The notes under the pieces: model-generated
What the model saw: the letters and a program-made list of their open reading frames with translations, nothing else
The model's database searches: none
What the model was told of the DNA's origin: nothing
Part shown: positions 2,143 through 55,601 of the stretch, piece by piece
Position numbering within the stretch: the stretch's first letter is position 1
Layout of the letters: every line of letters begins with the position of its first letter
Assembly: GCF_003217095.1 (NCBI RefSeq)
Contig: NZ_QJSR01000010.1
Location: forward strand, 1-60,343
DNA length: 60,343 nt
Source: Rhizobium sp. PP-CC-3A-592
GTDB taxonomy: Bacteria > Pseudomonadota > Alphaproteobacteria > Rhizobiales > Rhizobiaceae
Direction of reading: 5' to 3'
Position numbers and translations under genes: made by a program

Positions 2143-3273
2143 CTAGACAATCCCCCACGCCCGAAACCTCCCCCTCCCCGTCATCTCGCGCAGGCCCAGC
2201 TCCAAAACAATCCGCCGCGCCGCCTGCGGCGTGACGTCCAGCGCCTTCGCCACCATGCCGGCCGACACGAGCGGCCGTGCCATGACCAGCTCCACCAGCT
2301 CCAGCAATTTCGAGGAGGCTCGCCGTCCGTCCAGTTTTCGGTCCATCATTGTTTTCGCCAGAGTCAGCCGGTCATGCTCCTTCAGCCCGATCTCGGCGGC
2401 CGCGATCAGCCCGTGGGTGATCGCCAATAGCCGCGTTTCCCGATCACGATGCCGGCGCCGATCAACGGGAATGGTTTTCAGTCCGAGATTGATCGCCGCA
2501 AGATGGGCGCCGGTGGTGACGCCGGCCTGGCGCAGGATCGACGCGGCCAGCAGCCGGCCGAGCCAAGGGGCGTGCTGAAGGACGGACAGTTCGTTCCAGG
2601 CATCAAGGGCGACAATGGCCTGCAACACCGCGGACAAATTTTCGGCCTCACGCAACACAGCGCGCCATTCCTCGAGCCGCGCGTCCTCATCCCAGTCGAG
2701 ATCGTAGATCATCGGATCAGCCGGAGCCCGGCCGGGCTTTCTGGCTCGTTCGATCGCGGCGTCAGAGCGCGCAAGGATCGCGTCGATGGCGGCGTAGTCG
2801 ACGCCGGGGAGATTTTCGACGTCATCGACATCGTCCCCCTCCCCTTCCGTATCCGACGTGGCCGCGCGCCGAATGCCGCCGGCCGTCTCTCCCTCGTCTG
2901 CGCCGGCCGATGTGATGTCCGACGTTTGTCGCAAAGTTCGGATACCTTCTGCAGACAAGGCCCAGGTCGGAAGCTGAGCTGCAATGCGCCGGCGGGTGCG
3001 CAGGACGTCGCGGGCAATTGTCAGCTCATGGGTCGGTGTGCGAATATCTCTCACATCGTCATGGAGGACCAGGTCTTCGAGATGGACGAGTTCGCCGTCG
3101 ATCCATAGCGATGCGCAGGCATCGACGAAGTGTGTGCGTTCGATCCAGCCCGCGCCGACCGGCGAGCGGACGATGCGCTCGTCTAGGCGCGTCAGAGCGA
3201 CGCCGGCGTCGAAAACCGGCCGCATCAGGGGTGTCATGCTGATATTCTCGAGATCGTAAGCCATTGAAATCAT
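2143..3273 (-). CDS. DUF1612 (RHE_PE00001-family) protein with C-terminal winged HTH
   Basis: A 376-aa protein of a family almost confined to rhizobial replicons. The N-terminal part carries [18 protein letters not shown], which resembles [18 protein letters not shown] in the DUF1403 protein at 40.8-41.8 kb. An acidic linker follows near residues 125-160. The C-terminal about 60 residues ([22 protein letters not shown], shown here in part; then [16 protein letters not shown]) look like a winged helix-turn-helix. The start at 3273 has AGGAG ten bases upstream. A palindrome (CGATAA-N7-TTATCG) lies 82 bp upstream of the start, at the same offset as in front of the DUF1403 gene. DNA binding is inferred; the cellular role is unknown. 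Confidence 0.8.
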
Positions 3274-3320
3274 GGTAAATGATCTCCTACCGGAACTCTA
3301 TATAAATCTTGCGGTTCCTC

Positions 3321-3373
3321 ACATGGTATGATCGAAGGTTGGGGTTATAACCATCGATAAGTACCTCTTATCG
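3321..3373. promoter_or_regulatory. Palindromic site S1 with a conserved 40-bp flank
   Basis: CGATAA (3355-3360), a 7-bp spacer, then TTATCG (3368-3373). It lies in the divergent region between the DUF1612 gene and the antitoxin-PIN-recombinase unit. The adjoining stretch 3321-3360 matches 54014-54053 at 35 of 40 positions. It also contains the palindrome GGTTATAACC (3343-3352). It could be an operator, a tyrosine-recombinase core site or a centromere-like site; the sequence alone does not decide. Confidence 0.6.
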
Positions 3374-3452
3374 GTGACGATATGTACAAATCACTTGTAC
3401 GCATGCGATGGCGGTTGTATCATTGCCGTCAGAGCGATTTCCGGAGGTCCCG

Positions 3453-3746
3453 ATGCCCCAGACCAGCTACAAGATCAGCGAAGCCCGCAAGAATTTCGCA
3501 GAAGTCCTCGAACGCGCAAACCAGGGCGAGGAAATCATCATAATGCGCGGCAACGAAGTTTATGCCCGCATCGGTCCCGCGTCCGACGGTGGCAAGCGTC
3601 CTTTCGGCCTGCTGCGTCATCGTGGCCTGCCCGACAACCTGTTCGATGCAGTTGATGCAGAGCAGGCAATGATCGACGCTGGCGACTGGAACGACGATAC
3701 CGGTGTTTGGCAAGGCAAATCCAGCAGTACCGAAAGCACGCAATGA
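3453..3746 (+). CDS. Phd/YefM-family antitoxin
   Basis: A 97-aa protein. The N-terminal domain (YKISEARKNFAEVLERANQG, then EIIIMRGNEVYARIGP) is the Phd/YefM DNA-binding fold. The acidic C-terminal tail is the likely toxin-binding part. The start at 3453 is chosen because GGAGG lies 6 bases upstream; a longer frame from 3408 lacks a site. The stop overlaps the next start as ATGA, so antitoxin and toxin are translationally coupled. Antitoxins of this family block the PIN active site and repress their own operon. Confidence 0.85.
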   Translation: MPQTSYKISEARKNFAEVLERANQGEEIIIMRGNEVYARIGPASDGGKRPFGLLRHRGLPDNLFDAVDAEQAMIDAGDWNDDTGVWQGKSSSTESTQ

Positions 3747-4120
3747 AACTCCTGCTCGATAGCCATGCTGTCTACTGGTGGACAATCGGCAGTGATCGCC
3801 TGTCCGCCAGGGCACGATCGCTGATTGAGGACAAAACAAACTCCATCCTCGTCAGCGCGGTCACGTTCTACGAGCTGGACAATAAAATGCGCCTGAACAA
3901 GCTTGATCTCAAGCCCCAAGAACTAAGGGCAGCCGTCACGGAAAGCGGCCTGCAGACACTGGCCATCACCGATTTGCATGCTGAAGTCGCAGCCGCGTTC
4001 GATTGGGAGCATCGCGATCCGTGGGACCGGATTCTTGCCGCCCAAGCCCGGCTAGAGCACTGCAGTTTCGTCTCGACCGATGTGGCGTTCGACGCGATTC
4101 TACATGAGCGGGTCTGGTAA
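3743..4120 (+). CDS. PIN-domain toxin (VapC-like)
   Basis: A 125-aa PIN-domain protein starting MKLLLDSHAVYWW. The visible acidic residues are Asp6, Glu44 (TFYELDNK), Asp95 (DPWDRILAA) and Asp113 (VSTDVAF), all four expected ligands. The DPWDR block places it in the PIN subgroup normally paired with Phd-type antitoxins. Its start overlaps the antitoxin stop by four bases, and a second Phd-like gene follows after five bases. It is expected to be an RNase toxin held inactive by the upstream product. Confidence 0.85.
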   Translation: MKLLLDSHAVYWWTIGSDRLSARARSLIEDKTNSILVSAVTFYELDNKMRLNKLDLKPQELRAAVTESGLQTLAITDLHAEVAAAFDWEHRDPWDRILAAQARLEHCSFVSTDVAFDAILHERVW

Positions 4121-4380: not shown

Positions 4381-5522
4381 GCAGCTCGTCGTCAGGTTCG
4401 ATTGAGAAACGCGGGGAGACTTTAGACACGATAGCAGCCGTCCTGCCGATCGACCGTCGAGACGAGCTGGCAGAGCTGCTGACTGACCAGGATGTCGAAA
4501 CGCTCCGTCATCTCGTCAACGAAGGAATGGGCGCGAACACGCTTCGAGCGCTCACGTCGGACCTTGCCTATCTGCAGGCCTGGTCGCTGGCCACAACCGG
4601 CACTTCCATCCCCTGGCCAGCTCCCGAAGCTTCGCTTCTCAATTTCGTCGCCCATCATCTGTGGCAACCCGAGCAGCGGGACATCGATCCTCAACATGGC
4701 ATGCCAGCTGATGTCGAGCAGAGCCTGCGCGAACAGCGGTTCCTGCGATCGTCAGGTCCGCATGCGCCCGATACGGTGCGGCGACGGCTTGCCAGTTGGT
4801 CGACGTTGACGAAATGGCGAGGGTTGACGGGTGCTTTCTCCTCACCCTCGCTGAAATCGGCGATACGCCTTGCCGTGCGTGCAACACCACGGCCGCGAAA
4901 AAGCAAGAGCGCCAAAGCGGTCACCGGCGATGTTCTCGCCAAGATGCTCGTTACCTGCGCCACCGGCAGCCTGCCCGATCTGCGAGACCAGGCCATCCTC
5001 ATGGTCGCATTTGCTTCCGGCGGTCGCGGGCGTAGTGAGGTCGCCGGATTGCGCGTCGAGCAACTCACCGCCGAGCCGCCCGTTCCCGTCGAGAGTGGCT
5101 CTCCCCTGCCCTCGCTTTCCATCCATCTCGGCCGCACGAAGACCTCGGGCGCAGACCAAGACGAGGTCGTCTATCTCACCGGGCGGCCGGTCGACGCGCT
5201 CAACGCTTGGCTTGCAGCGACCCGGATCAAGACGGGAAGCATTTTTCGGAAGATCGATCGCTGGGGTAATCTCTCGCAGCGAGCACTGGAGCCGGGTGCG
5301 ATCAACCAGATTGTCAAGTCTCGAGCTGCGCTGGCCGGGCTCGATCCCGAAGCGTTCTCAGCGCATGGGCTGCGGTCGGGTTATCTGACAGAAGCGGCAA
5401 GCCGCGGTATTCCGCTACCCGAAGCCATGGAGCAGTCACGGCATCGTTCGGTCCAGCAGGCGTCAAGCTACTACAACAATGCGACGCGGCGCAGCGGTCG
5501 CGCAGCCCGATTGATATCGTAA
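4377..5522 (+). CDS. Tyrosine recombinase / site-specific integrase
   Basis: A 381-aa phage-integrase-family protein. Residues about 40-165 form the core-binding (SAM-like) domain and about 180-375 the catalytic domain. Visible catalytic residues are an Arg in FASGGRGRSEV (217 or 219), His330 and Arg333 in AHGLRSGY, His356 in SRHRSVQQ, and Tyr365/366 in SSYYNN. It is the last gene of a coupled four-gene unit with a toxin-antitoxin pair. A second, broken copy lies at 54155-54820, and the two share the upstream palindromic region. It likely cuts and rejoins DNA at a palindromic core; the target is unproven. Confidence 0.85.
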   Translation: MSSSSSGSIEKRGETLDTIAAVLPIDRRDELAELLTDQDVETLRHLVNEGMGANTLRALTSDLAYLQAWSLATTGTSIPWPAPEASLLNFVAHHLWQPEQRDIDPQHGMPADVEQSLREQRFLRSSGPHAPDTVRRRLASWSTLTKWRGLTGAFSSPSLKSAIRLAVRATPRPRKSKSAKAVTGDVLAKMLVTCATGSLPDLRDQAILMVAFASGGRGRSEVAGLRVEQLTAEPPVPVESGSPLPSLSIHLGRTKTSGADQDEVVYLTGRPVDALNAWLAATRIKTGSIFRKIDRWGNLSQRALEPGAINQIVKSRAALAGLDPEAFSAHGLRSGYLTEAASRGIPLPEAMEQSRHRSVQQASSYYNNATRRSGRAARLIS

Positions 5523-30034: not shown

Positions 30035-30670
30035 ATGGGTGAAGGTCAAAAACTCGCTGTGCGGTTGGTTGGTCGGAATGGAAGGCGGCGCTTCGATCAA
30101 GGTTCGAAAGATCGCCTCCTTGCGGCCTGTCTTGAACCCGGCGCATCAGTATCGAAACTTGCGCGAGAACACGGGGTCAGCGCGAACCTCGTTTGGAAAT
30201 GGATCAGGAACATTCCGCGGCACATCCATTATCGCCGTCCTCGACATCTGCGTCTATTGCGGTTCAGATTGCCGCCCCGAGCAGCGAGTTCGACCTTAAG
30301 ATGCCTGCCGCGGATCGCGAAGAGCGATTGCCGATGGCAGAGAGGAGCGCGCCGCTGCCCTCTCCAGCGAAGGTAAGTGCGTCATTGCCGAATGTTGTGA
30401 GATTTACGCTGGAGTGCCGCGATCTGAACGCATTGACTGTGATCATCGGAGCTCTGGCTCATGTTTTAGGCTCGGCGCTGATCTTCAAGTCTATCTCAAT
30501 CGCCAACCGATCGACTTCCGGGCCGGCATCAAAAGCCTTGCGGTCTTGGTCCAGGAGACGATGGTGGTGGGCCCGTTTGCTCCTTCAACGCTTGCCTTCT
30601 GCAACCGCCGGCGTGACCGGGTAAAGCTGCTATTCTTCAATCGCTCGGGCTTCGTGCTCATCTTGAAGCG
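30035..30670 (+). pseudogene. IS66-family tnpA and tnpB remnants
   Basis: From ATG 30035 the frame reads an OrfA-type HTH (NGRRRFDQGSKDRLLAACLE, then SVSKLAREHGVSANLVWKWI). After a frameshift near 30200 the OrfA end appears in another frame (EFDLKMPAADREERLPMAE, TLECRDLNALTVIIGALAHV). From about 30460 a third frame gives TnpB: LGADLQVYLNRQPIDFRAGI, LAVLVQETM, CNRRRDRVKLLFFNRSGFVL. TnpB stops at KRL and fuses in frame to a recombinase fragment. No tnpC is present here. It cannot move on its own. Confidence 0.8.
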
Positions 30671-30929
30671 GTTGACCATCCAGCGGTACGGGATCTACAA
30701 TCCCTACACGGGCCGCGGCGCGATCGAAGGGCTGCTGCCACACGGGCCACGCAATGTTCGCGATGTGCTCGCCACCCATATCTTAAAGCAGACCGGCTCC
30801 TACGAGCAGGCAAGCTATGCCATCCAGGATACGCCCGACATGGTCGCAAGGCACTGTGGCCGGTTCCTGCCGCTGGACAAGGCGGCGCTGGCGGCGAAGA
30901 TCCTCAATCAGGTCTGGCAGGCGGCGTGA
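30664..30929 (+). pseudogene. Duplicate of the 3' end of the 797-aa recombinase gene
   Basis: It encodes the last about 88 residues of the protein at 15275-17668 (LTIQRYGIYNPYTGRGAIEG to the same end, ILNQVWQAA), joined in frame to IS66 TnpB. The likely nucleophile is lost: ARHCGRF instead of ARHYGRF. DNA identity to 17413-17668 is patchy. The first about 40 bases and the stretch from about 30794 are nearly identical, while the middle differs at many third positions, which suggests gene conversion or two sources. Confidence 0.85.
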
Positions 30930-40133: not shown

Positions 40134-40838
40134 TCATTCGGATGACGCGTCGTCCACGTCGGCCTCCTCAACGCCATCTAACGGTAGGGCCACATCATTC
40201 TGCCGGCCCTGCATCAGCCCGGCGTCCTCCAGCATCTCGACATCGGGCAAATCCTGCAGCGTCTCCATGCCGAAGGCGCTGAGGAAGTGCCGTGTGGTCA
40301 CGTAGGTATATGGCGCACCGGGGGTGGGGCTGCGCGGGCCGGAAGCGATCAAACCAGCGCTGCGCAGGCTCGCAATGGTGTCCCGGCTGATCTCCTTGCC
40401 GAAGGTTTTTGAAAGTTCGCCGCGGGTGACCGGCTGCAGCGTGGCGATCGCCATCAGGACGGCTGCCTCCTGGCGAGATAGCGTCGCCGCCGTTGACCGC
40501 GTCTCAACCGTCGATGCACGAATGGTATCGGCATAGACGCTGCGGGTGCGATGCTGCCAGCCGCCAGCCACGGAGACGAGTTCATAGGGCCGCCCGACCA
40601 GATCCTCTCGCAGATCGTCGATCAGCAACTCGATGGCGCAATCCTCGCCGACGACGCGTGCCAGCGTTTCGCGCGTGACAGGCTCGGCGGACGCAAAGAT
40701 CACCGCCTCGACCCGCATCATCCATTCCCGCCACCGCAACGCCGCTGGCAGGTCCTCGAGCTCCCGGTCAAAAACGCGATCATCGTGCCGTTTCCCGGCG
40801 CGACGGCGGGCCCCTGTGCTCGAGTCCGCCATCGTCAC
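40134..40838 (-). CDS. scpB: ScpB-like protein (SMC-ScpAB condensin subunit family)
   Basis: A 234-aa protein. Two winged-helix domains of ScpB are seen: [20 protein letters not shown] from about residue 41, and [38 protein letters not shown] at the end. ScpB binds ScpA and the SMC ATPase in chromosome condensation. This is an accessory copy without scpA or smc nearby. GTG 40838 overlaps the DUF1403 stop (GTGA); ATG 40832 is an alternative. The two genes form one operon, as often in rhizobial plasmids. Confidence 0.8.
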
Positions 40839-41788
40839 AGCCCGTAGATCCGAAACATGCTGCGACCAGACAGCTCCCGCACGGCACCAGAACCCTCCAA
40901 CCGCTCGAACATCCGCCGGCTGGCCCAGCGCGACAGATCCGCGCCCGGAGCGGACGCCGATACCGCATCCTCATCCAGCAATCGGTGGATCACACCCTCC
41001 CCGCCTTTCGTGCGCAATTTTGGCGCCACGGTCACGAGCTGCCGGGCGCGTCGATCAATCTCGCTTGCGCTTTGCAGTGCGGCCCGTGCACCGTCCACCA
41101 GCGCCAGACATACCGCGCGTGCAAAGGCCGGCTCGCCTGGCCGCACCCGTCCGCGGCCACCAAGCGTGCGGAACGCCGGTCCGCTGCGCTGCGCCATCAG
41201 GAGAAACACCGGCCTCTGCCAGCCGAGCCGCTGCGCAATCAACCCGTCAGCAAGCGCCCAGGCCAGGCGTTCGGCATCCGGGCGAACGGCATGGATGACT
41301 GAGACGAGATCGGCCGCGGCAAAGGGCGCGGATCGAGGCGACTGCAGCGCGCCATCGAGCAGGTCGACCACGCCGGCCAGATGATCGTCCCAGCGCAGCG
41401 AGAGCAGCGTGGCGAGCTCCTGGAGGAACGCGGTGTTCATAGGACCTTTGCGGGCGCCGAGCCTCTTGTAGGCGGAATAGACGTTTCCAGCCGGCCCAAG
41501 ATCACCGGCGTCCGACGACAACAGCATGGCATCCCGCAGCTCGGCTTCCCCCTCGGTACGCCCCGTCAGGCGCACGGCCGCAGCGGCGGATCGAAGGGTC
41601 AGACGCGCGCGCCAGCAGCCCGCCCACACCGGCTCGCTGCGAACCAGATCGTCCAGCGTTTTCAGGGCGATGCCGGTGGAGAAGGCCGCATCGCTTTCCG
41701 TCTCGACAGGCCGCAGTGATACGGACCATGACGGCAGGATGAAGCCGGGGATAGTGGCAGAAGCGACCGGTATGTTGCGCAAAGTCAT
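40835..41788 (-). CDS. DUF1403 protein with C-terminal HTH-like end
   Basis: A 317-aa protein of the rhizobial DUF1403 family, of unknown function. The N-terminal motif [19 protein letters not shown] followed by VWAG matches [22 protein letters not shown] of the DUF1612 protein (2143-3273), so the two look like distant paralogues. The C-terminus ([28 protein letters not shown]) looks like a wing. It is coupled to scpB. A perfect palindrome lies upstream with its near half-site 82 bp from the start, the same offset as in front of the DUF1612 gene. Confidence 0.8.
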
Positions 41789-41864
41789 GACAGAAGCTTA
41801 GCTCGGATGTGCGGATTACGCCATTGAAAACTTATTGACCCGCACACACTGTCGCCAAATGATT

Positions 41865-41893
41865 ACGTCCGATAACGTTGACTTATCGGACGT
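41865..41893. promoter_or_regulatory. Palindromic site S3, perfect 11-bp arms
   Basis: ACGTCCGATAA, the spacer CGTTGAC, and TTATCGGACGT. The inner core CGATAA-N7-TTATCG is the one seen at S1 and S2. It is the only recognisable element between the DUF1403 start and the tniQ stop. Arm and spacer sizes also suit a tyrosine-recombinase core site. Confidence 0.7.
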
Positions 41894-41960
41894 CTTCTTC
41901 ATGATGCGAAAATGGCCCAATGTCGTTCGCTTTTCATCGACGGACAGCCTGTTTTGCGCG

Positions 41961-43448
41961 TCAGGTTGACGAGAATTCACGCTTATTGAGCGGACCGCAT
42001 TCGCGCTCAAACGCCGGACCTGGCTCGGCTTCGGCTCTCCCGACGCCCAGAGTATCAAATTGGTGCGATGCGACCGAGCAGACGAAATCTCGCGCATGCC
42101 ATTCGCTTGCAAATTCCACGTCAGGACGGTTTGTGTTCAATTTTCCGCAGCCAACAGGCTGCCCAGACGCGCGCCTCGCAGTTTCGGCCATAGGAGGCCG
42201 TACAGCGATTTGCTCAGCGTGACGATCACGGCTCATTCTCACCCTCGAAACGCGCTCCACGGCCGTCCACGTGACTCGATAATTTGCCCGCCAGGTCGCA
42301 ATTGAGTAGAAAGCCGGCCTCGCTGCTCGAATTGCGAGCAAGTGCTGCATCGACCAGCCGCGCGCGAAGACGTTGCCGTTTTCTCGCTGGCAGGTGCTCA
42401 GCTGTAATCCAGTCCGGATGCGCCAAGATATTGCGGGCCAAAGGTCGTAGTCTTCCGATGAGCGTCTCACTGCCTGATTGGAGGCCTCTTGGCGCAACGA
42501 TCGAGTAGCGGAGCGGCTTGTCATTGTCGTGGCCCTCCTGACCCAGCGGGTTGCGGCGTCCGGAATTGCATCATCCACATTTGGTTCAACGCCAAAGATA
42601 TCGTTCAAGGCCAGCAGCGTGACGAAGCGCCACCGCACCGGCATCCGGCCAAGCGGCGCGTCGGTACCCACGGCATGCCTGACTTCATAAGGGCAGCGCC
42701 ACCCGGCTTTGCCGAACCACAGCGCCAGAACGGGGCGTGCCGCTGCGGGATGATCGAGGGGCGCCCAAAGGATCGCAAGCGCCTTCTCCACCTGTTTTCG
42801 ACCGGGATCATTTTGATCGACGCTTGCCGCCACCAGCCGCTGGGTTGCCAACGCCGTCTGGACGAGCGCACGATCTCTTTGCGTACCACCCTCCCCTCCC
42901 CTGTCGTCAAGCAGGCATGCGCAATGATGACAGACCGGTCGCACGCAGCCATCGCGCAGGCAAAATGTTACGAAGAGTCGCTGATGACAAGAAATGCAGC
43001 GGTCGCAAAGCATTTGACCGTGTGCAGGACAGATACAGCACTCGCTGAGCATCCAGCTGGCCCGCAGATAGGCATTTCGACCCGCCACCCGATCGGCAGT
43101 GAAGCAGTCGAGGCAAACAGGCGGCGGTCCAGGCATCACCGAGTGGCCCCAATCCGGTCCGCGCCTCGTGAACCATGACGGAGGGCGCACCGGATAGCGC
43201 TTGCGCAAAGCCAGACGCTCCAGACGTCCGAGATCGATACCGCATGCCTGCGCCCACGCCGTTATCTGATGCTGTGCGGGCGACCAATCGTCGATTGGCA
43301 GGGGTGATGACAGGCTATTGCCGTCGTCGGCGAAATGGCCAACCAGTTCTCGTGCGGTGAGACCATAGCGGCATGCTACACGTGCCAGCCAGGAAGACAG
43401 CAATTTGTCACGATAGGGTCGCGGTGCGACTGGCAGACGCCCTGCCAT
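41961..43448 (-). CDS. tniQ: TniQ-family transposition protein
   Basis: A 495-aa protein. The N-terminal TniQ domain (LPVAPRPYRDKLLSSWLARV) includes zinc-knuckle cysteines in CLDCF, CCICPAHGQMLCDRC and VCHHCAC. TniQ proteins select or license the target in Tn7-, Tn5053- and CAST-like transposition. It is last in the tniA-tniB-tniQ operon, and its ATG overlaps the tniB stop (TAATG). The C-terminal about 150 residues are basic and unassigned. With tniA interrupted, it cannot work unless another TniA is supplied. Confidence 0.85.
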   Translation of the reverse strand: MAGRLPVAPRPYRDKLLSSWLARVACRYGLTARELVGHFADDGNSLSSPLPIDDWSPAQHQITAWAQACGIDLGRLERLALRKRYPVRPPSWFTRRGPDWGHSVMPGPPPVCLDCFTADRVAGRNAYLRASWMLSECCICPAHGQMLCDRCISCHQRLFVTFCLRDGCVRPVCHHCACLLDDRGGEGGTQRDRALVQTALATQRLVAASVDQNDPGRKQVEKALAILWAPLDHPAAARPVLALWFGKAGWRCPYEVRHAVGTDAPLGRMPVRWRFVTLLALNDIFGVEPNVDDAIPDAATRWVRRATTMTSRSATRSLRQEASNQAVRRSSEDYDLWPAISWRIRTGLQLSTCQRENGNVFARGWSMQHLLAIRAARPAFYSIATWRANYRVTWTAVERVSRVRMSRDRHAEQIAVRPPMAETARRASGQPVGCGKLNTNRPDVEFASEWHARDFVCSVASHQFDTLGVGRAEAEPGPAFERECGPLNKREFSST

Positions 43449-44383
43449 TATCGGCCCACCAGCTGCGTCATCCCGCGAACTGCCCGTCTGCCGGCAGCTT
43501 GCGTCATCGACACGAGCGGCAGCACGAGATGGTCCCCGAAGCTCGTCAGGTCCAGCTGCTCCCTGCCCGACCTGATAGCTTCTTCGGCTGCGGTCTCGAT
43601 CAGTCGGAAAATTCGTGAGGTGACGCCGCTGGTGAGTATGTGAATCCGTTCACGTACCGCCTGACTTTCGAGATCGGACGAACCGCGCAATGGCAGGATT
43701 CCTGCAAGGCTCTTCAGGAGCCGTGCAAAGGCATGATCGTTCTTCCAGGGTTTGAGATGAAGCGCCTCGAAACGTTCGGCCAGTTGCGCGTCTGTGAGCA
43801 AGGCCTGGCGCGCAAGATCGGTCCCGGCGCAGACAAGCGGCACTCTCAGGTCGTTTGCAAGAAACCGCAAGGCATTGAGGAAAATCCGTTGCTGCCGATA
43901 GGTGCCAGCCAGCATGCCGTTCACCTCATCGAGGATAATCATCCTGGCCCCGACGGTTCGCAGTAGTGAGCGGCAGACGTCCTTCTCGCGGGCAAGCGTC
44001 CCGCCAGCGAGCGCTGGAGCCTGCAAGCTGGCCAGCAGTTCCCGATAAAGATCGCGCTCAACCGGCTCCGAGGGCACCTGCGCCACCACGACCGGCCTTT
44101 TGGTGACCCCTGTTGACTGGCGGAATGTAGCCGGATGCGCCCGCTCGAACTTGCGGACGATCTTGGTCTTGCCCATACCGGTGTCGCCATAGATCAGCAG
44201 GCAAGGCATGCGGTCACGTGGCGGATAGGCCAACAAAGCGTTCAGACGCACAAGTGCTCCTTCCGCCTGATCGAAGCCTATCCAGCGATCGGCGTTGATC
44301 CATGCGATGCGTTCTTCCTCAGGCAGTGCTGCATAGCGCCGATAGCGCTCGTCAAGATGCTCGTATGCACCCTCCCCGCTCAC
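43448..44383 (-). CDS. tniB: TniB-family AAA ATPase
   Basis: A protein of about 311 aa. It has Walker A GDTGMGKT, Walker B MIILDEVN, and the TniB/TnsC-like layout (RRYAALPEEERIAWINADRW before it, LRFLANDLRVPLVCAGTDLA after it). It is an ATP-dependent partner that links TniQ-marked targets to the transposase. The GTG at 44383 overlaps the tniA stop (GTGA), so translation is coupled; the frame to 44422 is longer but would run into tniA. Confidence 0.85.
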   Translation of the reverse strand: MSGEGAYEHLDERYRRYAALPEEERIAWINADRWIGFDQAEGALVRLNALLAYPPRDRMPCLLIYGDTGMGKTKIVRKFERAHPATFRQSTGVTKRPVVVAQVPSEPVERDLYRELLASLQAPALAGGTLAREKDVCRSLLRTVGARMIILDEVNGMLAGTYRQQRIFLNALRFLANDLRVPLVCAGTDLARQALLTDAQLAERFEALHLKPWKNDHAFARLLKSLAGILPLRGSSDLESQAVRERIHILTSGVTSRIFRLIETAAEEAIRSGREQLDLTSFGDHLVLPLVSMTQAAGRRAVRGMTQLVGR

Positions 44384-44959
44384 GACCACTCCTCGACGGA
44401 AAAAAGGGGCACTTTGCTCCAATCGATTGGTCGGTCGTCCTCAGTTTCAGGTGGAGCGGCCGATCGGTTGGGTTTGGTAGCGTCGAGCGCGCGGTCCCGC
44501 TTCTCTACAAGTTGCCGCGCTGCCTTCGTGCGCCGGGCGGCATCATCAACCAGTGCGCGCTGGGTCTCGATGGCCTCAAAGATCAGTTGCTCGTCTACCA
44601 GGGCAAGACCGCGTTCTCTCAGGGCGGTTCGGGCACGGCGGTGCTCGCCCAGCGTTATCGGCGGCCGCCGCAGATCAGCGAAACGGATCAGCCAGCGCGT
44701 ACCATCTGGAGCCCTTACGAAAATCTGCGAGAGATCACGTGGATCGTAGGAAATGCGTAGCGGCCGGTCGAGCCGACCAGCCCAGATGCTGAGCACGTCG
44801 TCCCAGTAGCGCAGACCGAACAGACGAATCCCGTCACGCCGCACCAGTCGATCGACGCTGGGGAGGAAATCGATCATAAAACCAGCGAGGTCATGAGGCT
44901 GGCGCACAGGCCGAAGTCGCCGGGCCGTAGCCTCATGCCACGCCGCCAGGGGCGGAATC
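44380..44959 (-). pseudogene. tniA: tniA 3' part (Mu-type transposase C-terminus)
   Basis: This is the downstream half of tniA, cut by the IS21-family element. It encodes IPPLAAWHEATARRL, RRDGIRLFGLRYWDDVLSIW and the Mu-type beta-barrel region (ISYDPRDLSQIFVRAPDGTR) to the acidic end. Deleting 44960-47579 together with one GAATC joins it to 47580-48651 in frame: 1072 + 575 = 1647 nt, or 548 aa plus stop, reading ALG-IPPLAAW across the seam. The interruption therefore looks recent. Confidence 0.85.
44955..44959. repeat. Target-site duplication GAATC, left copy
   Basis: GAATC lies directly before the element's first base (TG...). The same five bases follow its last base at 47580-47584. Five bases is within the usual range for IS21-family insertions. 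Confidence 0.8.
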
Positions 44960-45106
44960 TGTGTATTCCAATGAAACCGGACGAGGGTTCCGATCATTGA
45001 CCGGACGCTTATTCCAGCGTTTTACCGGACGCTATTCCGAGGCAAATCCGGACAGTGTAGAGCGTCTCTGGGTCTGAGTGATCATTGTCGGCGAATATCG
45101 GGCTGG

Positions 45107-45862
45107 TCAAGCCTGAGTTGCATCCTCGGCTGACAGGTTTCGATGTTTGCGCAGGCTCTCACCGGAAAGTTCGATGCGGTAGGCGTTGTGGACGAGGCGA
45201 TCCAGCACGGCGTCGGCGATCGTGGGATTTCCGATCATATCGTACCAGTGGTCCACGGGGATTTGGCTGGTAACGATGGTCGAGCGCTTCTCGTAGCGAT
45301 CCTCAACAATCTCCAGGAGATCGCGTCGTTGCTCGTCGCTGAGCTTCTCCGGCCCCCAATCGTCCAGGATCAGGAGATCGGTTTTGGCCAGGCTCTTGAG
45401 CACCTTTGCGTAGCGACCGTCGCCTCGTCCCAAGGCAAGCTCGGCAAAGAGCCGTGGCACGCGGTGATAGGCGACGGAATAATCCTCACGGCACGCCTTA
45501 TGGCCGAGGGCGCATGCCAGCCAGCTTTTGCCAACACCGGCTGGCCCGATCAATAGCAAGGAGTGCCGCTGTCTGATCCAGTCGCAGGTGGAAAGCTTGA
45601 GGAAGAGGTTGCGGTCGAGACCGCGTGCCGCACGGAAATCGACATTCTCGACCTGTGCGTCATGACGGAGCCTGGCCGCGCGGGCTCTTGCCTCGAAGCG
45701 TTTCTGGCGGCGCGTGGTCTGCTCGCGTTCGAGCAAGATCGCGAGCCATTCGCCATGCTGAAGGCTTCTCGCTTCCGGTTGCTTCTCCAGATCCTGGAAA
45801 GCGGTGGCCATGCCAGAAAGGCCGAGTTGGTACAGAGTATCGACGGTCGGATTTGTCAGCAT
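45107..45862 (-). CDS. istB: IS21-family helper ATPase IstB
   Basis: A 251-aa AAA ATPase with Walker A GPAGVGKS and Walker B LLILDDWG, plus the IstB end (VTSQIPVDHWYDMIGNPTIA, DAVLDRLVHNAYRIELSGES). IstB assembles on DNA and recruits IstA to the target. Start 45862 (MLTNPTVDTL) has a GGAG-like site; the longer frame overlaps istA. It lies 13 bp downstream of istA. Confidence 0.9.
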   Translation of the reverse strand: MLTNPTVDTLYQLGLSGMATAFQDLEKQPEARSLQHGEWLAILLEREQTTRRQKRFEARARAARLRHDAQVENVDFRAARGLDRNLFLKLSTCDWIRQRHSLLLIGPAGVGKSWLACALGHKACREDYSVAYHRVPRLFAELALGRGDGRYAKVLKSLAKTDLLILDDWGPEKLSDEQRRDLLEIVEDRYEKRSTIVTSQIPVDHWYDMIGNPTIADAVLDRLVHNAYRIELSGESLRKHRNLSAEDATQA

Positions 45863-45875
45863 TTTTGATTGTCTC

Positions 45876-47411
45876 CTAATGAAAGTAGGCTTTGCCGCGA
45901 AGATTGGCATGCTCGCCGACGGCAGCGGATTCGGCGGAATGTCTTGGTGCCTTGTAGGTACTGATGAGGGCGCTGATGCTTTTGCAGGTCAGTCCGCCGA
46001 TCTCGACGGCACGGGCGGACACCGCTTCGGCCTGCATTGTGGGAATTGCCCGATAGAGCTTCAGCACGCCGAGGCAAGTTCGAAAGCCTTGTTCCGGATG
46101 AGGGCGGTTGGCCAGGATGGCAATGATCAGCCCCTCTGTGTGAGGTCCGATGGATGCACCCCAGCGCTGGAAGCGTTCAGGAGACCATTCTGCGTAACGG
46201 CGGTGCGAACTGGGCATATGGTCGGGATCGGTTCCGTAGCGGGAACCGCCGTAACGGCGTTGGTGGGCGGCAACCCTCTTGCCTCTGAAGAAGACCTCGA
46301 TCGTGCGGGTCGTGGCCCGCATATCCACCTGTTGGCGGATGAGGGTATGGGGCACGGAGTAGAAATAATGCTCAAACTCAACGTGATAGTCGGTCGACAC
46401 CCGTGCCAGCTTCCATTCGGCGTATTCGTAATCCTCAGCCGGAAGCGTGGCGAGTGCCGGGCGTTCCATGGTCTCGAACATCTCCTTGCGCGTTTGGCCA
46501 AGCCGCTTCATCACGTGCGTGTTGATCCGTTCGACAGCTCCGCGGATGGCGGCATTAGCTTCCTCCAACGAGAAGAAGGTCTGATTGCGCAGTCGGCCGA
46601 GAATGCAGGTCTGGGCAAAACGAACGCCGGCCTCGACTTTTGGCTTGTCTTTTGGCCGCTTCGGCCGCGCAGGAAGCACACCGACGCCGTAATGGGCCGC
46701 CATGATGGCGTAGCTGCGGTTGATCTCCGGATCGTAGAAGCTCGCCTTGTTGACGCCGGACTTCAAATTATCCGGAACGATAAGGCGCGGCACCCCGCCA
46801 AAGAAGGCGAACATGCGCACGTGCGAGCCGATCCAGTCCGGCAGGGTCTGGGTCCAGGTTGCTTCTGCAAAGGCATAACTCGATGCGCCGAGCACGCCGA
46901 CAAAGATCTCTGCCTCGCGGATCTCGCCGGTCTTGCGATCGACGATCGGCAGCTTCTTGCCGGAATAGTCGACGAACACCTTGTCGCCAGCGATATGGAT
47001 CTGCCGCATCGTTGGCGTCAGACGTCGCTCAAAGCCGCGGAACAGGTCGCAGAACCGGCTGAAGCCGTAGCCATCAGGATAGACGGCTCGATATTCTTCC
47101 CACAGGATTGTCAGGGTCACGCCGGGCTTCTTCAGCTCCACCGCAAGGACGCTCCAATCCGGCTCGGGTCGTCTCCGCTCCCCTTGTCTGGTGCCTTGCC
47201 GGGCGAAAAGTTTGCCTTCCAGGACGTCGTCAGTCAGATCGGCAGGCAAAGGCCATGACAGCCCTGCCGTCGCAGCTCGCCCGATCCCGTCCTGCACCGT
47301 GCTGCGGGCAATCCCGAGAAGATCGGCAATATCGCGAACGCTCACGCCGTCTGATCGCAGTCGAAGTAAATGTCGGATTTGTCTCATGGTCAGCCTTCGT
47401 CTCTTCGACAT
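45876..47411 (-). CDS. istA: IS21-family transposase IstA
   Basis: A 511-aa protein. The N-terminal HTH (LRSDGVSVRDIADLLGIARS) binds the terminal repeats. The DDE catalytic core shows VFVDYSG, RLIVPDNLKSG and PKVEAGV as the Asp, Asp and Glu positions. The C-terminal part (RVSTDYHVEFEHYFYSVPHT) is typical of IS21 transposases. It is full length without stops or shifts. It is the first gene of the istAB operon within the element that interrupts tniA. Confidence 0.9.
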   Translation of the reverse strand: MSKRRRLTMRQIRHLLRLRSDGVSVRDIADLLGIARSTVQDGIGRAATAGLSWPLPADLTDDVLEGKLFARQGTRQGERRRPEPDWSVLAVELKKPGVTLTILWEEYRAVYPDGYGFSRFCDLFRGFERRLTPTMRQIHIAGDKVFVDYSGKKLPIVDRKTGEIREAEIFVGVLGASSYAFAEATWTQTLPDWIGSHVRMFAFFGGVPRLIVPDNLKSGVNKASFYDPEINRSYAIMAAHYGVGVLPARPKRPKDKPKVEAGVRFAQTCILGRLRNQTFFSLEEANAAIRGAVERINTHVMKRLGQTRKEMFETMERPALATLPAEDYEYAEWKLARVSTDYHVEFEHYFYSVPHTLIRQQVDMRATTRTIEVFFRGKRVAAHQRRYGGSRYGTDPDHMPSSHRRYAEWSPERFQRWGASIGPHTEGLIIAILANRPHPEQGFRTCLGVLKLYRAIPTMQAEAVSARAVEIGGLTCKSISALISTYKAPRHSAESAAVGEHANLRGKAYFH

Positions 47412-47579
47412 GCCATCTCCTCAAGTTCAAAAGGAAATGCATGCCAAGATTGCTGACCCAGGGGCACTGCTTACGTTGAAAAACTGTCCGGTATCAAATC
47501 GGAATCGCGTCCGGTTGATTCTTGGAATCGTGTCCGGTTTTTGATCGGAACGCCGTCCGGTAAATCATCGGAATCTACA

Positions 47580-48651
47580 GAATCCCCAAAGCTCCATGTC
47601 GATCCGCATGATAGCGCACGATCTCAAGCGCCATCCAACGCTGCAGTTCGTCCAAGATCATCGTCGCATTTGCCGCCGAGTCATAGCTGCCGCGCTCATC
47701 GATATCGCTGAATGTCGTGCCGGGTAGAAGATGGATAGCGCCCATCATGGTGCCGATCAGCCGTTCGATATGGCCTCCGTAATGCGGCGTGGCGATCGGG
47801 CGATGGATGAGTTCAATACCATATTCTTCGGCACCTCGCCGCAATGCGACCGATCGGAATTCCTTGGCATTGTCGAGATGGATCGCGTCGGGGAACCCTG
47901 AGATGGGCCACTTCGCATCGATCCCCAGTCCGACAAGCCATGGCTCTTTTGGTTGCACGACGTGCTGGATTGCGAGAGCAACCGACACTGTCGACGGCGC
48001 CTCCAGCGTCAGATAGAAGCCTGCGACCATGCGGCTTGCAACGTCGATGGCAAGCGTCAGCCACGGCCTCTGCAGTGGTCGTCGATACTGACGGTCAACG
48101 ACGATAACATCGACCATGGTGTGATCGATCTGGACGACGTCGAATGCGCACTCAGCGGTATATTCTCCAGGGACGGGTCGGGAGCGATCGCGTGCGGCCT
48201 TAGAACCTTCCCGTGCCTTGGTGAGTTCGGCCGGATCCATCGCAGCAATTCGGGCTTTTACCGCCTGCCAGGAAGGCGCTCGCACGCCACGCAACCGGCA
48301 AAGGCCGCGGATCTCCTTATGCAGCCGATTGATGCTGGGTTTCTGACGTGTCGAGTAGAAATCCCGTACAGCTTGTGCAATCACCACCTCGGTCTCATCC
48401 GGCAGGCGGCGGCTCCCTCGCCTCGTGCCTGCTGGATTCGGGAGCAGCGAACTTGTGACCGGATTTTCCCGATAGGCTGTGATCAACTCATACAGTCGCG
48501 TTCGTCTGATTCCGAGCTCGCGGCAAGCTCTATGGAAGTCGGAACGACTGGGCCGACCAACGGCAAGCAGCCTGCGAAGTACAGCCTCTCTTCGTACTGC
48601 CTCGTCCCAGACAGCCTCTTCCATAATGTGTCTGTTAGCCCCAGGAACCAC
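47580..48651 (-). pseudogene. tniA: tniA 5' part (DDE transposase N-terminus and catalytic core)
   Basis: This is the upstream half of tniA; its first five bases (47580-47584) are the second GAATC copy. It has an N-terminal HTH region (LAVGRPSRSDFHRACRELGI) and the catalytic core: Asp in VVQIDHTMVDV, Asp in AIHLDNAKEF and Glu in GGHIERLIGT. Read alone it stops a few bases into the IS element. GTG 48651 with GGAGG upstream is the probable start; ATG 48624 is an alternative. With the element removed it encodes a Tn5053/Tn552-type transposase of 548 aa. Confidence 0.85.
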
Positions 48652-48777
48652 AGCGCCTCCGCTGAAAAGTTCGTCCGCCGAATTATCGCGAAAAATACGC
48701 CGGTTCGGCTAAAATCCGGTCATCAACTGCGAATATGATTCGTTCCACATCAGAAACTTACCGTCCGCCTATGAACC

Positions 48778-49917
48778 ATGAATGACACTCAAATCATCGA
48801 GCAGAACACCGAAATCCACGTCGAGAAGACCTCAGCGCCGTCTCTCAGCACGGCGGCTGGGCATGATGTTTCAGCGTCGCAGGTATCGGGCGGAAGCCCC
48901 CTCCTCTCTCCCGCCGGCGACGATCAGACGCCAACCCATCTCGCCAACCTTGCCGATCGTGCCCGGGGCTACGTCGCAGCGGCCAGCTCCGCGAATACAC
49001 GAAAAGGCTACGCAGCCGACTGGAAGCATTTTTCCGCGTGGTGCCGGCGGTCCAATCTGGCTCCCCTCCCCTCGCATCCGCAGACCGTTGGTCTCTACAT
49101 CACCGCCTGCGCGTCGGGCGCGGCGACGCGAGGCATGAAGGCGAACGCGGTGTCGACGATCGAGCGACGTCTGGCGTCCCTGTCCTGGAACTATGCCCAG
49201 CGCGGCCTCCCGCTCGATCGCAAGGATCGTCATATCGCAACGGTCATGTCCGGCATCCGCAAGAGCCATGCCAAGCCTCCGGTTCAGAAAGAGGCAGTAC
49301 TGGCGGAAGACATCATCGCCATGGTCGAGACGCTTGATCGCGGCACGCTGCGCGGCCTACGTGATCGCGCCATGCTGCTGATCGGCTATGCTGGCGGCCT
49401 GCGCCGCTCCGAGATCGTCGGTCTCGATCTGAAAGCCGAGCAGACGGAAGACGGGCGAGGCTGGATCGAGATCCTTGATCAGGGGATGCTCGTCACCCTG
49501 CGCGGCAAGACCGGATGGCGGGAGGTTGAGATCGGGCGGGGGTCGTCGGATGCCACCTGCCCGGTCGTGGCGGTAGAGACCTGGATCACCTTCGCCAGGC
49601 TTGCCCACGGGCCGCTGTTTCGCCGCGTGACCGGACAAGGCAAAGCCGTTGGACCGGATCGTCTCAACGACCGGGAGGTGGCGCGACTGGTGAAGCGGAC
49701 AGCCATGGCCGCGGGTGTGCGCGGTGATCTCAGCGAGATCGAGCGGGCGGAGAAGTTCTCCGGGCACTCGCTGCGCGCCGGCCTTGCCTCCTCGGCGGAG
49801 GTCGACGAGCGCTATGTGCAGAAGCAGTTGGGACATGCTTCCGCTGAGATGACGCGAAGATATCAACGGCGGCGAGATAGGTTCCAGGTGAATCTGACCA
49901 AAGCTGCAGGTTTATAG
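48778..49917 (+). CDS. Tyrosine recombinase / site-specific integrase
   Basis: A 379-aa protein. Residues about 60-170 are the core-binding domain (ANTRKGYAADWKHFSAWCRR) and about 185-375 the catalytic domain. Catalytic residues seen are Arg in GGLRRSEI, Lys near RGKTGWREV, His/Arg in GHSLRAGL, His in LGHASAEM and Tyr in TRRYQRRR. The first 60 residues are disordered-looking. It starts 127 bp from the divergent tniA. A truncated copy lies at 51808-52500. It belongs to a different subfamily from the recombinase at 4377-5522. Confidence 0.85.
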   Translation: MNDTQIIEQNTEIHVEKTSAPSLSTAAGHDVSASQVSGGSPLLSPAGDDQTPTHLANLADRARGYVAAASSANTRKGYAADWKHFSAWCRRSNLAPLPSHPQTVGLYITACASGAATRGMKANAVSTIERRLASLSWNYAQRGLPLDRKDRHIATVMSGIRKSHAKPPVQKEAVLAEDIIAMVETLDRGTLRGLRDRAMLLIGYAGGLRRSEIVGLDLKAEQTEDGRGWIEILDQGMLVTLRGKTGWREVEIGRGSSDATCPVVAVETWITFARLAHGPLFRRVTGQGKAVGPDRLNDREVARLVKRTAMAAGVRGDLSEIERAEKFSGHSLRAGLASSAEVDERYVQKQLGHASAEMTRRYQRRRDRFQVNLTKAAGL

Positions 49918-51807: not shown

Positions 51808-52500
51808 TGGGCGGCTATCATTGCCTTGGTCGAGACGCTCGACCACGGTTCGCTGCGCGGCCTGCGAGACCGTGCCATGCTGCTCATCGGCTTTGCAGGA
51901 GGTCTTCGCCGCTCCGAGATCTTTGTCCTTGATCCGAAGGCAGACCAGACCGAAGATGGGCGCGGCTGGATCGAAATCCTCGACAAGGGAATGCTCGTCA
52001 CCCTGCGCGGCAAAACTGGATGCCGGGAAGTCGAAATTGGCCGCGGTTCTTCAGACTCTACCTGCCCAATCGCGGCAGTCGAGACCTGGGTCAAGTTCGC
52101 CAAGCTTGCGCACGGTCCCCTTTTCCGTCGGGTCACGGGACAAGGCAAAGCGGTTGGGCCAGAAAGGCAGAATGACAAGGAAGTGGCTCGGCTGGTGAAG
52201 CGGGCCGCAATGGCGGCCGGCGTTCGCGGTGATCTCAGCGAGATCGAGTGTGTGTTTGAGTTCTCCAGTCATTCCCTTCGGGCAGGCCTCGCTTCTCCTG
52301 CCAAAATCAATGAGCGACACGTCCAGAAGCAACTGGGGCATGCGTCCGCAGAGATGACCCGCAGATATCAACGACGGCGCGATCGCTTCCGTGTAAACCT
52401 GACCAAGGCATCCGGGCTTAAGTTGCCCCCTCTCCGCCAAGCGCTTGCAATAAGATCGTTTGGACATTATAGTCACGATAGTCATTTTTGTTATAGGTGA
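51808..52500 (+). pseudogene. Truncated copy of the 48778-49917 recombinase
   Basis: It encodes only the catalytic domain, from VETLDHGSLRGLRDRAMLLI; the core-binding domain (about 180 residues) is missing. The catalytic residues are still present (GGLRRSE, SHSLRAGL with Ser for Gly, LGHASAEM, TRRYQRRR). The frame runs past the parent's stop (TKASGL) for about 28 extra residues. It was probably cut by the IS66 insertion and deletion just upstream. It might yield a catalytic-domain fragment but not a working recombinase. Confidence 0.8.
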
Positions 52501-54013: not shown

Positions 54014-54071
54014 ACATGGTATGATCGCCGGTTGGAGTGCTAACCATCGATAACTATCAATTATCGATGAT
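54014..54071. promoter_or_regulatory. Palindromic site S2 with the conserved 40-bp flank
   Basis: CGATAA (54048-54053), the spacer CTATCAA and TTATCG (54061-54066). The 11-base arms ACCATCGATAA and TTATCGATGAT match at 10 of 11 positions. The adjoining 54014-54053 matches 3321-3360 at 35 of 40. It lies about 90 bp upstream of the broken recombinase copy. On the other side no intact gene faces it. Confidence 0.6.
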
Positions 54072-54154: not shown

Positions 54155-54820
54155 GTGGTGAAACCCAAGACATCACTGACGGCCTTCGAGCGCCGTGCAG
54201 AAGAGCTCGACACCATCGCCGCCGTGCTGCCGATGGAGCGGCGCGACGAACTTGCCGAACTGCTCACCGACCACGACGTCGAGAGCCTGCGCCATCTCGT
54301 CAACCGTCGACCAGGGGATGGGCGACAACACACTTCGCGCCCTCACCTCCGATCTCGCTTATCTCGAAGCATGGGGACTGGCGGCGACTGGTAAGTCACT
54401 GCCCTGGCCTGCGCCAGAAGCGCTACTACTAAAATTCGTTGCGCATCATCTCTGGGACCCGCAACGCCGCGAGACCGATCCGGATCACGGCATGCCGGCC
54501 GACGTCGACGAAAGCCTTCGAAGCCAAGGGGCTCTGAAATCCGTCGGCCCGCATGCGCCGGCAACGGTGCGCCGGCGGCTGGCGAACTGGTCGACGCTGA
54601 CCAAATGGCGTGGGCTCGACGGCGCCTTCGCCTCCCCTGCCCTCAAGTCGGCTATCCGACTCGCCGTGCGCGCCGTCCCCCGAACGCGGGGTCGCAGGGG
54701 CGCCAAGGCGGTCACCGGCGACGTCCTGGCAAAACTGATGGCGACCTGCGCCACCGATACTCTGCGGGACCTGCGCGAACGGGCGATCCTGATGGTCGCG
54801 TTTGCGTCCGGCGGCCGGAA
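54155..54820 (+). pseudogene. Frameshifted, truncated copy of the 4377-5522 recombinase
   Basis: The first frame gives LDTIAAVLPMERRDELAELL as in the intact copy. At about 54302 seven extra bases (AACCGTC, beside GTCGACC) shift the frame. The second frame then follows the parent (TLRALTSDLAYLEAWGLAAT, KAVTGDVLAKLMATCATDTL) until FASGGR. There the sequence leaves the family just at the first catalytic Arg and enters the antisense of an adenosine-deaminase-like gene. The catalytic domain is lost, so it is not functional. Confidence 0.85.
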
Positions 54821-54821
54821 C

Positions 54822-55601
54822 AGGGTGATCATCGAGCGATCCAACGACGCCGAGTTCAACCTCTGCTCTCGGGCAGACCGTTACAGCTACGCCCGAGTCC
54901 CCGAGCCGCCGTGCCAGGTCCGGTCTTTCGTAGACCCGGTTGCCGTGATCCACGCGATCCACACGGAGAAGATCGTCTGCCTCTTCAATGTCTTCCGGCG
55001 GTCCCTCGAACCCTGCGTGAGCGGCCAGCTTGAGTCCGATCGCATGCGCCTGCTCGAAGAGCCGGACGAAGGTTCGGGGCGGATAGCCGATCTCCGCCGA
55101 GTCGATCCCAAGCGCCACGATCCCCTGTTGGTAGGGTTCCAGGGACGCCAGCAATGCCAGAGCTTCCTCCTCGTCCCGCTCGCGCATGAAATTTACGATG
55201 ATTGCGGTTGAAAGACCATTGCGCCTCGCCCGGTCCCTAGCGGCGGCGAGGCCCGCGAGGACAGTGCCAAGCGCTACCCCGCGCGACGTGTGCGCTTGTG
55301 GGTCGAACATCAGCTCAACGTGATAGACGCCCTCGGCAATCGACTGGTCGAAATGGGCAGATGCGACCTCCGCGAAATCGCTAAGGTGGAGCAGTACCTC
55401 CGAAGCCTTCGCGAAAATCTCCAGGAATTCTTCCAGACTCGCCACGTCGTAAGCGGCTCGTGCGGCATCCACGCTTCCAAACAAGTCGACGCCGTTCCGT
55501 CGCCCGATCGCAACAACCTGTTCGGGAGTGACGCACCCTTCCAGATGGACGTGCAGTTCAGCCTTTGGGAGCGAGCGAATGAAAGCAGCTCGATCGGTCA
55601 T
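54822..55601 (-). pseudogene. Adenosine/adenine-deaminase-like gene, 3' end lost
   Basis: About 260 N-terminal residues remain: KAELHVHLEG (two metal His), VELMFDPQAHTSRGV, GLKLAAHAGFEGPPEDIEEA and VDRVDHGNR. The family end, with the last His and the Asp pair (SDDP), is gone because the gene meets the recombinase copy after GSLDDHP. The catalytic Glu of HAGE is Phe here (HAGFEG), so the enzyme may have been inactive before truncation or had another reaction. The open frame continues to 54429, antisense to the recombinase, and that part is not native. Confidence 0.8.

Follow-up and report, generated by a model that had tools for sequence, protein, structure and literature searches.

A palindromic site beside tyrosine recombinase genes of rhizobial plasmids, a candidate core for recombination with predicted Fic-fold partners

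The Xer/dif system and the plasmid cer/psi sites combine two 11-bp arms, a short spacer and ATAA...TTAT inner ends with accessory DNA at fixed spacing, and PepA and ArgR serve as accessory factors in other recombination systems. In organisation, the closest parallel to the locus described here is TnpS/TnpT-rst, which resolves the cointegrates of Tn4651-type Tn3 transposons and in which, in the available excerpts of PMC7157771, a divergent tyrosine recombinase and a helper are arranged around a site with two inverted-repeat pairs. Insertion at res sites, aided by the resolvase of the target, is described for Tn5053-family elements in the accessible part of PMC7765201. The portion of PMC10194956 at hand reports RinQ of R. 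etli p42d and a XerD-papAT block downstream of repABC in pSmeLPU88b, and mentions neither the palindrome studied here nor DUF1403 or RHE_PE00001.

We analysed a 60,343-nt stretch of Rhizobium sp. DNA (the window), in which an original prediction had found the palindrome CGATAA-N7-TTATCG upstream of a DUF1403 gene and a DUF1612 (RHE_PE00001) gene, and had read it either as the operator of a shared regulator family or as a recombination or segregation site. As in Xer/dif and cer/psi, two 11-bp arms with ATAA...TTAT inner ends enclose a short spacer, with proposed accessory DNA at fixed spacing; unlike those sites, the palindrome has symmetric arms, a 7-bp spacer and its own recombinase adjoining it. 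A divergent recombinase and a helper flank the site here as around rst (PMC7157771, in excerpt), but the helpers are predicted Fic-fold winged-helix proteins (with ScpB), and the carriers seen are plasmids and tni transposons. These transposons share TniA, TniB and TniQ with the Tn5053/Tn402 res site hunters, as well as ends close to a presumed resolution site and, in L163 and L114 (L numbers denote fetched stretches of DNA), 5-bp target duplications, although their targets here are mostly tyrosine-recombinase modules (compared with the accessible part of PMC7765201). Like RinQ and XerD-papAT in the available portion of PMC10194956, the recombinase (and toxin-antitoxin genes) stands beside repABC.

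The original prediction knew of no description of the palindrome, and we found none in the accessible parts of the literature on DUF1403, DUF1612, RHE_PE00001, y4cF, y4cG, rinQ, tnpS/tnpT, half-sites, repABC cointegrates, and tni with tyrosine recombinases. No paper naming DUF1403 was found.

The palindrome, its copies and its spacers

The core pattern, with arms of up to 11 bp around a 7-bp spacer, is present exactly at both places first noticed and at a third that had been overlooked (Table 1; pattern scan of all 60,343 nt). The 41870 site is perfect over 11-7-11, and so has the inverted arms of about 11 bp and the 6-8 bp spacer expected of a resolution site; outer arms are mixed at many other sites. 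With up to two mismatches allowed, the window holds six matches against a shuffle mean of 1.42. In the 5.12-Mb genome the pattern is matched exactly four times and its reversed control never. Among 151 genomes of the family, 51 carry exact sites, 78 in all, and the reversed control is matched 15 times, so that roughly four-fifths of the sites are beyond chance. On these counts we reject a chance origin of the palindrome; the original prediction had put the chance expectation at far less than once in 60 kb.

Table 1. Coordinates of the palindrome copies and neighbouring features in the window.
Feature	Position	Strand	Sequence elements	Remarks
Site 41870, proposed core site	41865..41893, core 41870-41888		ACGTCCGATAA-CGTTGAC-TTATCGGACGT	Tyrosine recombinase/DUF1403/ScpB module
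Site 3355, proposed core site	3350..3378, core 3355-3373		Spacer GTACCTC	Tyrosine recombinase/RHE_PE00001 module; outer arms imperfect
Third site	54043..54071, core 54048-54066		Spacer CTATCAA	RHE-type leader on left
RHE_PE00001 protein (DUF1612 + HTH_13)	2143..3273	-		Predicted Fic fold without Fic motif, C-terminal winged helix; proposed accessory or regulatory partner
Second dyad, RHE side	3292..3318		GGAAC 3292-3296, GTTCC 3314-3318	Between 3355 core and RHE_PE00001 start
Phd/YefM antitoxin gene	3408..3746	+		Between 3355 site and recombinase
PIN-domain gene	3707..4120	+		Presumed toxin partner of the Phd/YefM antitoxin
Tyrosine recombinase, 381 aa	4377..5522	+		Divergent partner of RHE_PE00001 at the 3355 site; R, H-x-x-R, H, Y conserved
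ScpB family protein	40134..40838	-		Overlaps end of DUF1403
DUF1403 protein	40835..41788	-		Predicted Fic-like fold, C-terminal winged helix, no Fic motif; proposed accessory or regulatory partner
Second dyad, DUF1403 side	41808..41846		TGTGCGG 41808-41814, CCGCACA 41840-41846	Spacing similar in relatives; proposed accessory or operator site
Inferred tni transposon, 6,867 bp	41921..48787			32 bp from 41870 core, in the recombinase gene's first codons
TniQ	41961..43448	-
TniB	43448..44422	-
TniA	44380..48651	-		Two parts, 47575-48651 and 44380-44997
IS21-like element (IstA-like and IstB genes)	45107-47411			Splits TniA
Tyrosine recombinase, 379 aa	48778..49917	+		DUF1403 module; parted from site by tni insertion
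Fragment of a further tyrosine recombinase gene	51817..52419	+
Broken tyrosine recombinase gene	54167..54824	+		Starts about 100 bp right of third site

No RHE_PE00001 gene was found at the third site. The fourth site of the genome (G000:C11:2016) has a spacer identical to that of the 41870 site and precedes a second DUF1403-ScpB pair, whose proteins are 92% and 90% identical to those of the window pair. The repC genes of this genome are on contigs C6 and C7, not on the window's contig.

The spacer consensus differs between DUF1403 modules and RHE modules. Wherever one region carries at least two sites (11 of 11 regions: L035, L099, L141, L148, the window and L158-L163), their spacers differ, mostly owing to the difference in module type between the sites. 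Exclusion by spacer among the plasmids of one cell is not supported, since identical spacers occur on co-resident plasmids.

Two further observations concern the flanks and the rest of the window. If the recombinase comes next to the site, RHE-type left flanks (for example those of L158, L123 and L034) carry an extra dyad, TGATTTG...CAAATCA, about 12 bp to the left of the core; if a toxin-antitoxin pair intervenes, as at the 3355 site, a GTACAA dyad takes its place. The window also contains a 262-bp direct repeat (17407-17668 and 30668-30929, 92% identical, 13 kb apart) and an open frame of 797 aa (15275-17668) with no Pfam match at E 0.001.

Partner genes and the adjoining recombinase

Loci for comparison were chosen by protein and not by the pattern, one per genome, and the 30 best-scoring loci of each family were taken from the 49 (DUF1403) and 58 (RHE_PE00001) genomes with a match. 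The site, with up to two mismatches, is present in 24 of the 30 DUF1403 loci and in 17 of the 30 RHE_PE00001 loci, and absent from six and 13, respectively. The original prediction had measured 82 bp from each start codon to the near half-site (41788 to 41870 and 3273 to 3355), which is correct in this genome. Elsewhere, an ATG lies 82-84 bp from the site in 23 of the 24 site-bearing DUF1403 loci. Of the 17 site-bearing RHE_PE00001 loci, 16 have one at 90-91 bp, and nine also have an in-frame ATG at 82. The offset is therefore real and nearly invariant within each family where the site is present, at about 83 bp for DUF1403 and 91 bp, often also 82, for DUF1612/RHE_PE00001. Because the latter family has its ATG at 90-91 bp, and only sometimes an in-frame one at 82, the equality of the two offsets depends in part on the choice of ATG, and 82 bp for both as a general law is weakened.

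Inside the leader of both families, between the core and the partner start, lies a second dyad. Hand-made patterns, applied after removal of duplicates and of sites lacking a module label, detected both of its arms in 27 of 35 DUF1403-type records and 10 of 26 RHE-type records. Relative to the core, the arms lie at +23 to +25 and +52 to +53 in 23 of the 27, and at +35 to +37 and +57 to +58 in the ten.

On the other side of the site stands a divergent tyrosine recombinase gene, which the original prediction had overlooked. The first annotated plasmids inspected place the site between DUF1403-ScpB or RHE_PE00001 and a recombinase, near repABC; in pRL10 the tyrosine recombinase begins 24 bp from the core, and in pSR5 tni genes part the two. 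The partner ATG lies 82-91 bp from the core, and in ten modules the recombinase match begins 24-43 bp from it. The catalytic residues R, H-x-x-R, H and Y are invariant in seven of seven aligned recombinases. A tyrosine recombinase is found upstream in 28 of the 60 protein-picked loci, all 28 of which carry the site, and in none of the 19 loci without a site, one of which has just 64 bp of upstream sequence (Fisher p 1.7e-7, with kinship ignored and with five loci having at most 300 bp upstream). Of the 41 site-bearing loci, 28 thus have a tyrosine recombinase linked to the site, and ten have no recombinase upstream, four of these having less than 310 bp of upstream sequence and two holding a tni insertion there. 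On the chromid p42e (L164/L165), the RHE_PE00001 gene that has been proposed to be essential in R. etli follows directly after repC with neither recombinase nor palindrome, and may have a chromid-specific role there. Given the contrast of 28 of 28 with 0 of 19, and a p42e gene lacking both, we conclude that the site tracks the divergent tyrosine recombinase more closely than it tracks DUF1403 or RHE_PE00001/DUF1612.

This linkage bears on the operator reading, in which the palindrome would be bound by the winged helix of DUF1403 or RHE_PE00001, the protein would repress its own gene as well as the divergent genes for the recombinase or the toxin-antitoxin pair, and the breakpoints described below would be incidental. 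Such a role would suit the fixed offset to the starts of both families, the winged helix predicted in both, the partly symmetric outer arms, and a palindrome that stays intact next to RHE_PE00001 in modules with a serine recombinase. However, an operator should be present wherever its gene is, and the counts of 24 of 30 and 17 of 30, together with p42e, depart from this; the site is missing from 19 of the 32 loci without an upstream tyrosine recombinase. It also persists beside recombinases where no partner gene was found (at sites located by the pattern itself, and on p42d), its core lies closer to the recombinase than to the partner ATG in the ten modules, and replicons that are near-identical on one side have their breakpoints at the core. 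We therefore consider an operator unlikely.

The strongest counterpoint to a recombination site is the presence of the same palindrome in serine-recombinase modules. Among the protein-picked loci with a serine recombinase, three of eight have the site at one or two mismatches and five have none; searching by pattern, the intact palindrome was found in serine-recombinase modules of L034, L134, L136 and L147. Such a module on p42d (L166:5745) also carries it, with 12-bp arms, GCTTCCGATAAG-CATTA-CTTATCGGAAGC. The p42d copy lies about 420 bp upstream of a gene annotated as a recombinase family protein (4408-5325), with no RHE_PE00001 annotated next to it. From its family and place we infer that this gene is rinQ, which would put the same palindrome upstream of that recombinase. 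Since the dyad axis falls on a base, and since the serine-linked RHE_PE00001 sites of the protein-picked loci are degenerate or absent, a serine recombinase is unlikely to be the palindrome's enzyme.

DUF1403 and RHE_PE00001 were originally taken for relatives. Predicted models give both a Fic fold and a winged helix, and so point to a relation at the level of the fold; a profile comparison (probability 30, E 5.5e-4, 276 columns) is suggestive of one. They differ from Fic proteins with a C-terminal winged helix, such as SO_4266 (3eqx), in missing the Fic motif HPFx[D/E]GN[G/K]R, which even in a loose form was found in none of 29 RHE_PE00001 and none of 27 DUF1403 sequences. ScpB adjoins DUF1403 in 27 of the 30 loci. 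The six site-less DUF1403-ScpB pairs (L057, L060, L061, L063, L064 and L065) also lack a recombinase, and their neighbours, where Pfam matched (four of the six loci), are metabolic or regulatory ORFs; thus, the pair also occurs outside the module. Relatives of the window's DUF1403 and RHE_PE00001 proteins are found in 692 and 1,051 plasmid records, respectively.

Transposon ends and breakpoints near the core

Ends of tni transposons cluster near the cores, which favours a recombination site, because the Tn5053 family targets res sites (PMC7765201, in excerpt). The Vaf10 element (6,745 bp, ends TGTGGCTTTTA/TAAAAGCCACA) carries recombinase, site, DUF1403, ScpB, TniQ, TniB and TniA, and is near-identical on four plasmids of the strain. 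At RHE-type sites, copies and relatives of this element are inserted on the RHE side, with the recombinase end facing the site each time: 16 bp from the core in L161 and L162; 75 bp in L163, with the only full target duplication seen in this type (GTGTG, 5/5); 153 bp in L158-L160, past about codon 27 of RHE_PE00001; and 155 bp in pRL10, past about codon 25. The exception is L157, with no recognisable site and with pieces of tyrosine recombinase about 1.7 kb off. In carrying a tyrosine recombinase-DUF1403-ScpB module the Vaf10 element differs from Tn5053/Tn402 as described in the available part of PMC7765201; no serine resolvase (TniR) was found in it, and a serine-recombinase query found none in the window element.

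A second tni type sits between site and recombinase, in the window, L114, L132 and L036. Terminal inverted repeats of about 25 bp and 5-bp target duplications are typical of Tn5053/Tn402 elements. The window element has terminal inverted repeats matching at 19 of 30 positions and a target duplication of CCCAA/CTCAA (4/5). The L114 element ends 55 bp from the core, with inverted repeats matching at 23 of 30 and a full duplication (CAGCG, 5/5), and contains a serine recombinase gene, like the tniABQ-R elements of PMC7765201 (in the part available). Ends in L132 and L036 lie 47 and 48 bp from the core, with no full duplication; L144 holds a remnant, with one end 67 bp from the core and its two ends 301 bp apart; L119/L120 have a possible end at 95 bp, with no full duplication, and L147 has no clear tni end. 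As a control, the best scores at 300 random window positions had a median of 21, a 95th percentile of 23 and a maximum of 27. The ends in L114 (33) and L144 (28) exceed that maximum; the window end (27) equals it and is also backed by the recombinase reading frame on both sides; those in L132/L036 (25) fall between the 95th percentile and the maximum, and that in L119/L120 (20) is not above the control. The DUF1403 module is not always part of a tni transposon: tni genes are present in 10 of 36 DUF1403 stretches, and the other 26 have none in the fetched DNA. The recombinase-site-DUF1403-ScpB module is thus carried by one tni subgroup, in which it probably serves as the transposon's own resolution system.

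Pairwise comparison of the fetched modules (at least 95% identity over at least 400 bp) revealed three replicon pairs that are 96-99.9% identical on one side and break at the site, one inside the core and two within 8 bp of it. L143 and L151, from two genomes of one genus, match at 99.87% over at least 6,158 bp, as far as the DNA was fetched; this homology starts 1 bp ahead of the core, blastn found no match further left, and the two core sequences differ solely to the left of the right arm. Two plasmids of R. leguminosarum Vaf10, L158 and L160, are 99.2% identical over 7.2 kb that begin at the outer edge of the left arm; left of the site, identity is 16-30% per 50 bases. In L125 and L126, which are contigs of a single genome, the core and its right flank are 96% identical across 467 bp, and the sequences diverge 8 bp left of the core. 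Additionally, the plasmid of L163 (strain Vaf-108) is orthologous to that of L158, with the same RepA, RepB and RepC accessions; the two are 91% identical up to 7 bp past the core and differ from there to the transposon. All other ends in this comparison are transposon ends, edges of fetched DNA, or lie 0.4 kb to several kb from the site. A reciprocal exchange product of L151 was not found in its own genome. The L160 junction joins the left flank of one plasmid to the donor leader and gene start, the transposon, and the remainder of another RHE_PE00001 gene, an arrangement that would be the expected leftover of a cointegrate resolved at plasmid sites.

Match ends in the plasmid collection cluster at the site as well. 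With L158 as query, 15 of the 59 non-self matches listed (348 records) end within 17 bp of the core, on both sides, three of the 15 being one walnut lineage. With L034 (core 1502-1520), 27 of the 59 non-self matches listed (418 records) start at 1470-1515, and one ends at 1536. Among the 24 non-self matches in a further listing of 25 of 162 records, 12 end 40 bp left of the core, six end 4-15 bp past it, five run through and one ends elsewhere. A conserved leader could account for part of this clustering, and the pairs near-identical on one side are the stronger evidence.

The mosaics might also have arisen by homologous recombination or tni activity that stops where homology stops, the site being a regulatory or binding site within a shared intergenic block. 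Many shared segments do stop at tni ends, the near-identical transposon copies on four plasmids of one strain could seed homologous exchange, and the 12 of 24 listed matches that stop 40 bp from the core do not stop at the core itself. Nevertheless, L143 and L151 break inside the core with no tni genes found in the fetched DNA of either, and in three independent pairs homology is lost no more than 8 bp from the core, against other ends that are scattered or are transposon ends. We regard this origin as quite improbable.

A proposed role and its implications

Between the two roles first suggested, the evidence favours a recombination site, with the operator weakened by the loci that lack both site and tyrosine recombinase. 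We think it reasonably probable that the tyrosine recombinase acts at the palindrome as the core of a recombination or resolution site, and that the predicted Fic-fold proteins assist or regulate it. Support comes from the conserved site and offset, the linkage to the recombinase and its invariant catalytic residues, the mixed outer arms, the breakpoints at the core, the nearby tni ends and the predicted Fic folds. Under this proposal the palindrome would be the crossover core, and the divergent recombinase of about 380 aa would bind both inverted arms and exchange strands across the 7-bp spacer. Exchange would resolve plasmid multimers or transposon cointegrates, and could occasionally fuse different plasmids, or reassort them, at the site. 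DUF1403 (with ScpB) and RHE_PE00001/DUF1612 may bind the second dyad at its fixed spacing and serve as regulators and accessory factors, as PepA and ArgR do elsewhere, or as TnpT does, and tni transposons would home on the recombinase sites.

It is very improbable that a host factor acting in trans (chromosomal XerC/D or a segregation protein) targets the palindrome and that the nearby recombinases are passengers: the palindrome's inner arms are dif-like and it is common to tyrosine and serine modules, but it is present in 28 of 28 loci with a local tyrosine recombinase, its 7-bp rather than 6-bp spacer and symmetric arms are unlike dif, and its spacer consensus differs between DUF1403 and RHE modules.

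Returning to the tyrosine recombinase acting at its own palindromic core, we offer more tentatively, and with rather more doubt than confidence, the view that it represents an undescribed class of resolution system, in which winged-helix Fic pseudoenzymes and a plasmid ScpB would be architectural accessory factors, and which tni transposons would both hunt and carry. RHE_PE00001, listed as a conserved hypothetical protein, has been proposed to be essential in R. etli (PMC9022086 and PMC3898782, in the parts available), which makes the question directly testable.

If the proposal is correct, it would provide a function for two common protein families of rhizobial and agrobacterial plasmids, and would extend res-site hunting by tni transposons to the sites of tyrosine recombinases. 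It would also imply a role for Fic folds in DNA architecture. Finally, these plasmids would carry a resolution site whose exchange can reassort them, and exchange between sites on co-resident plasmids would be a motor of rhizobial plasmid reassortment.
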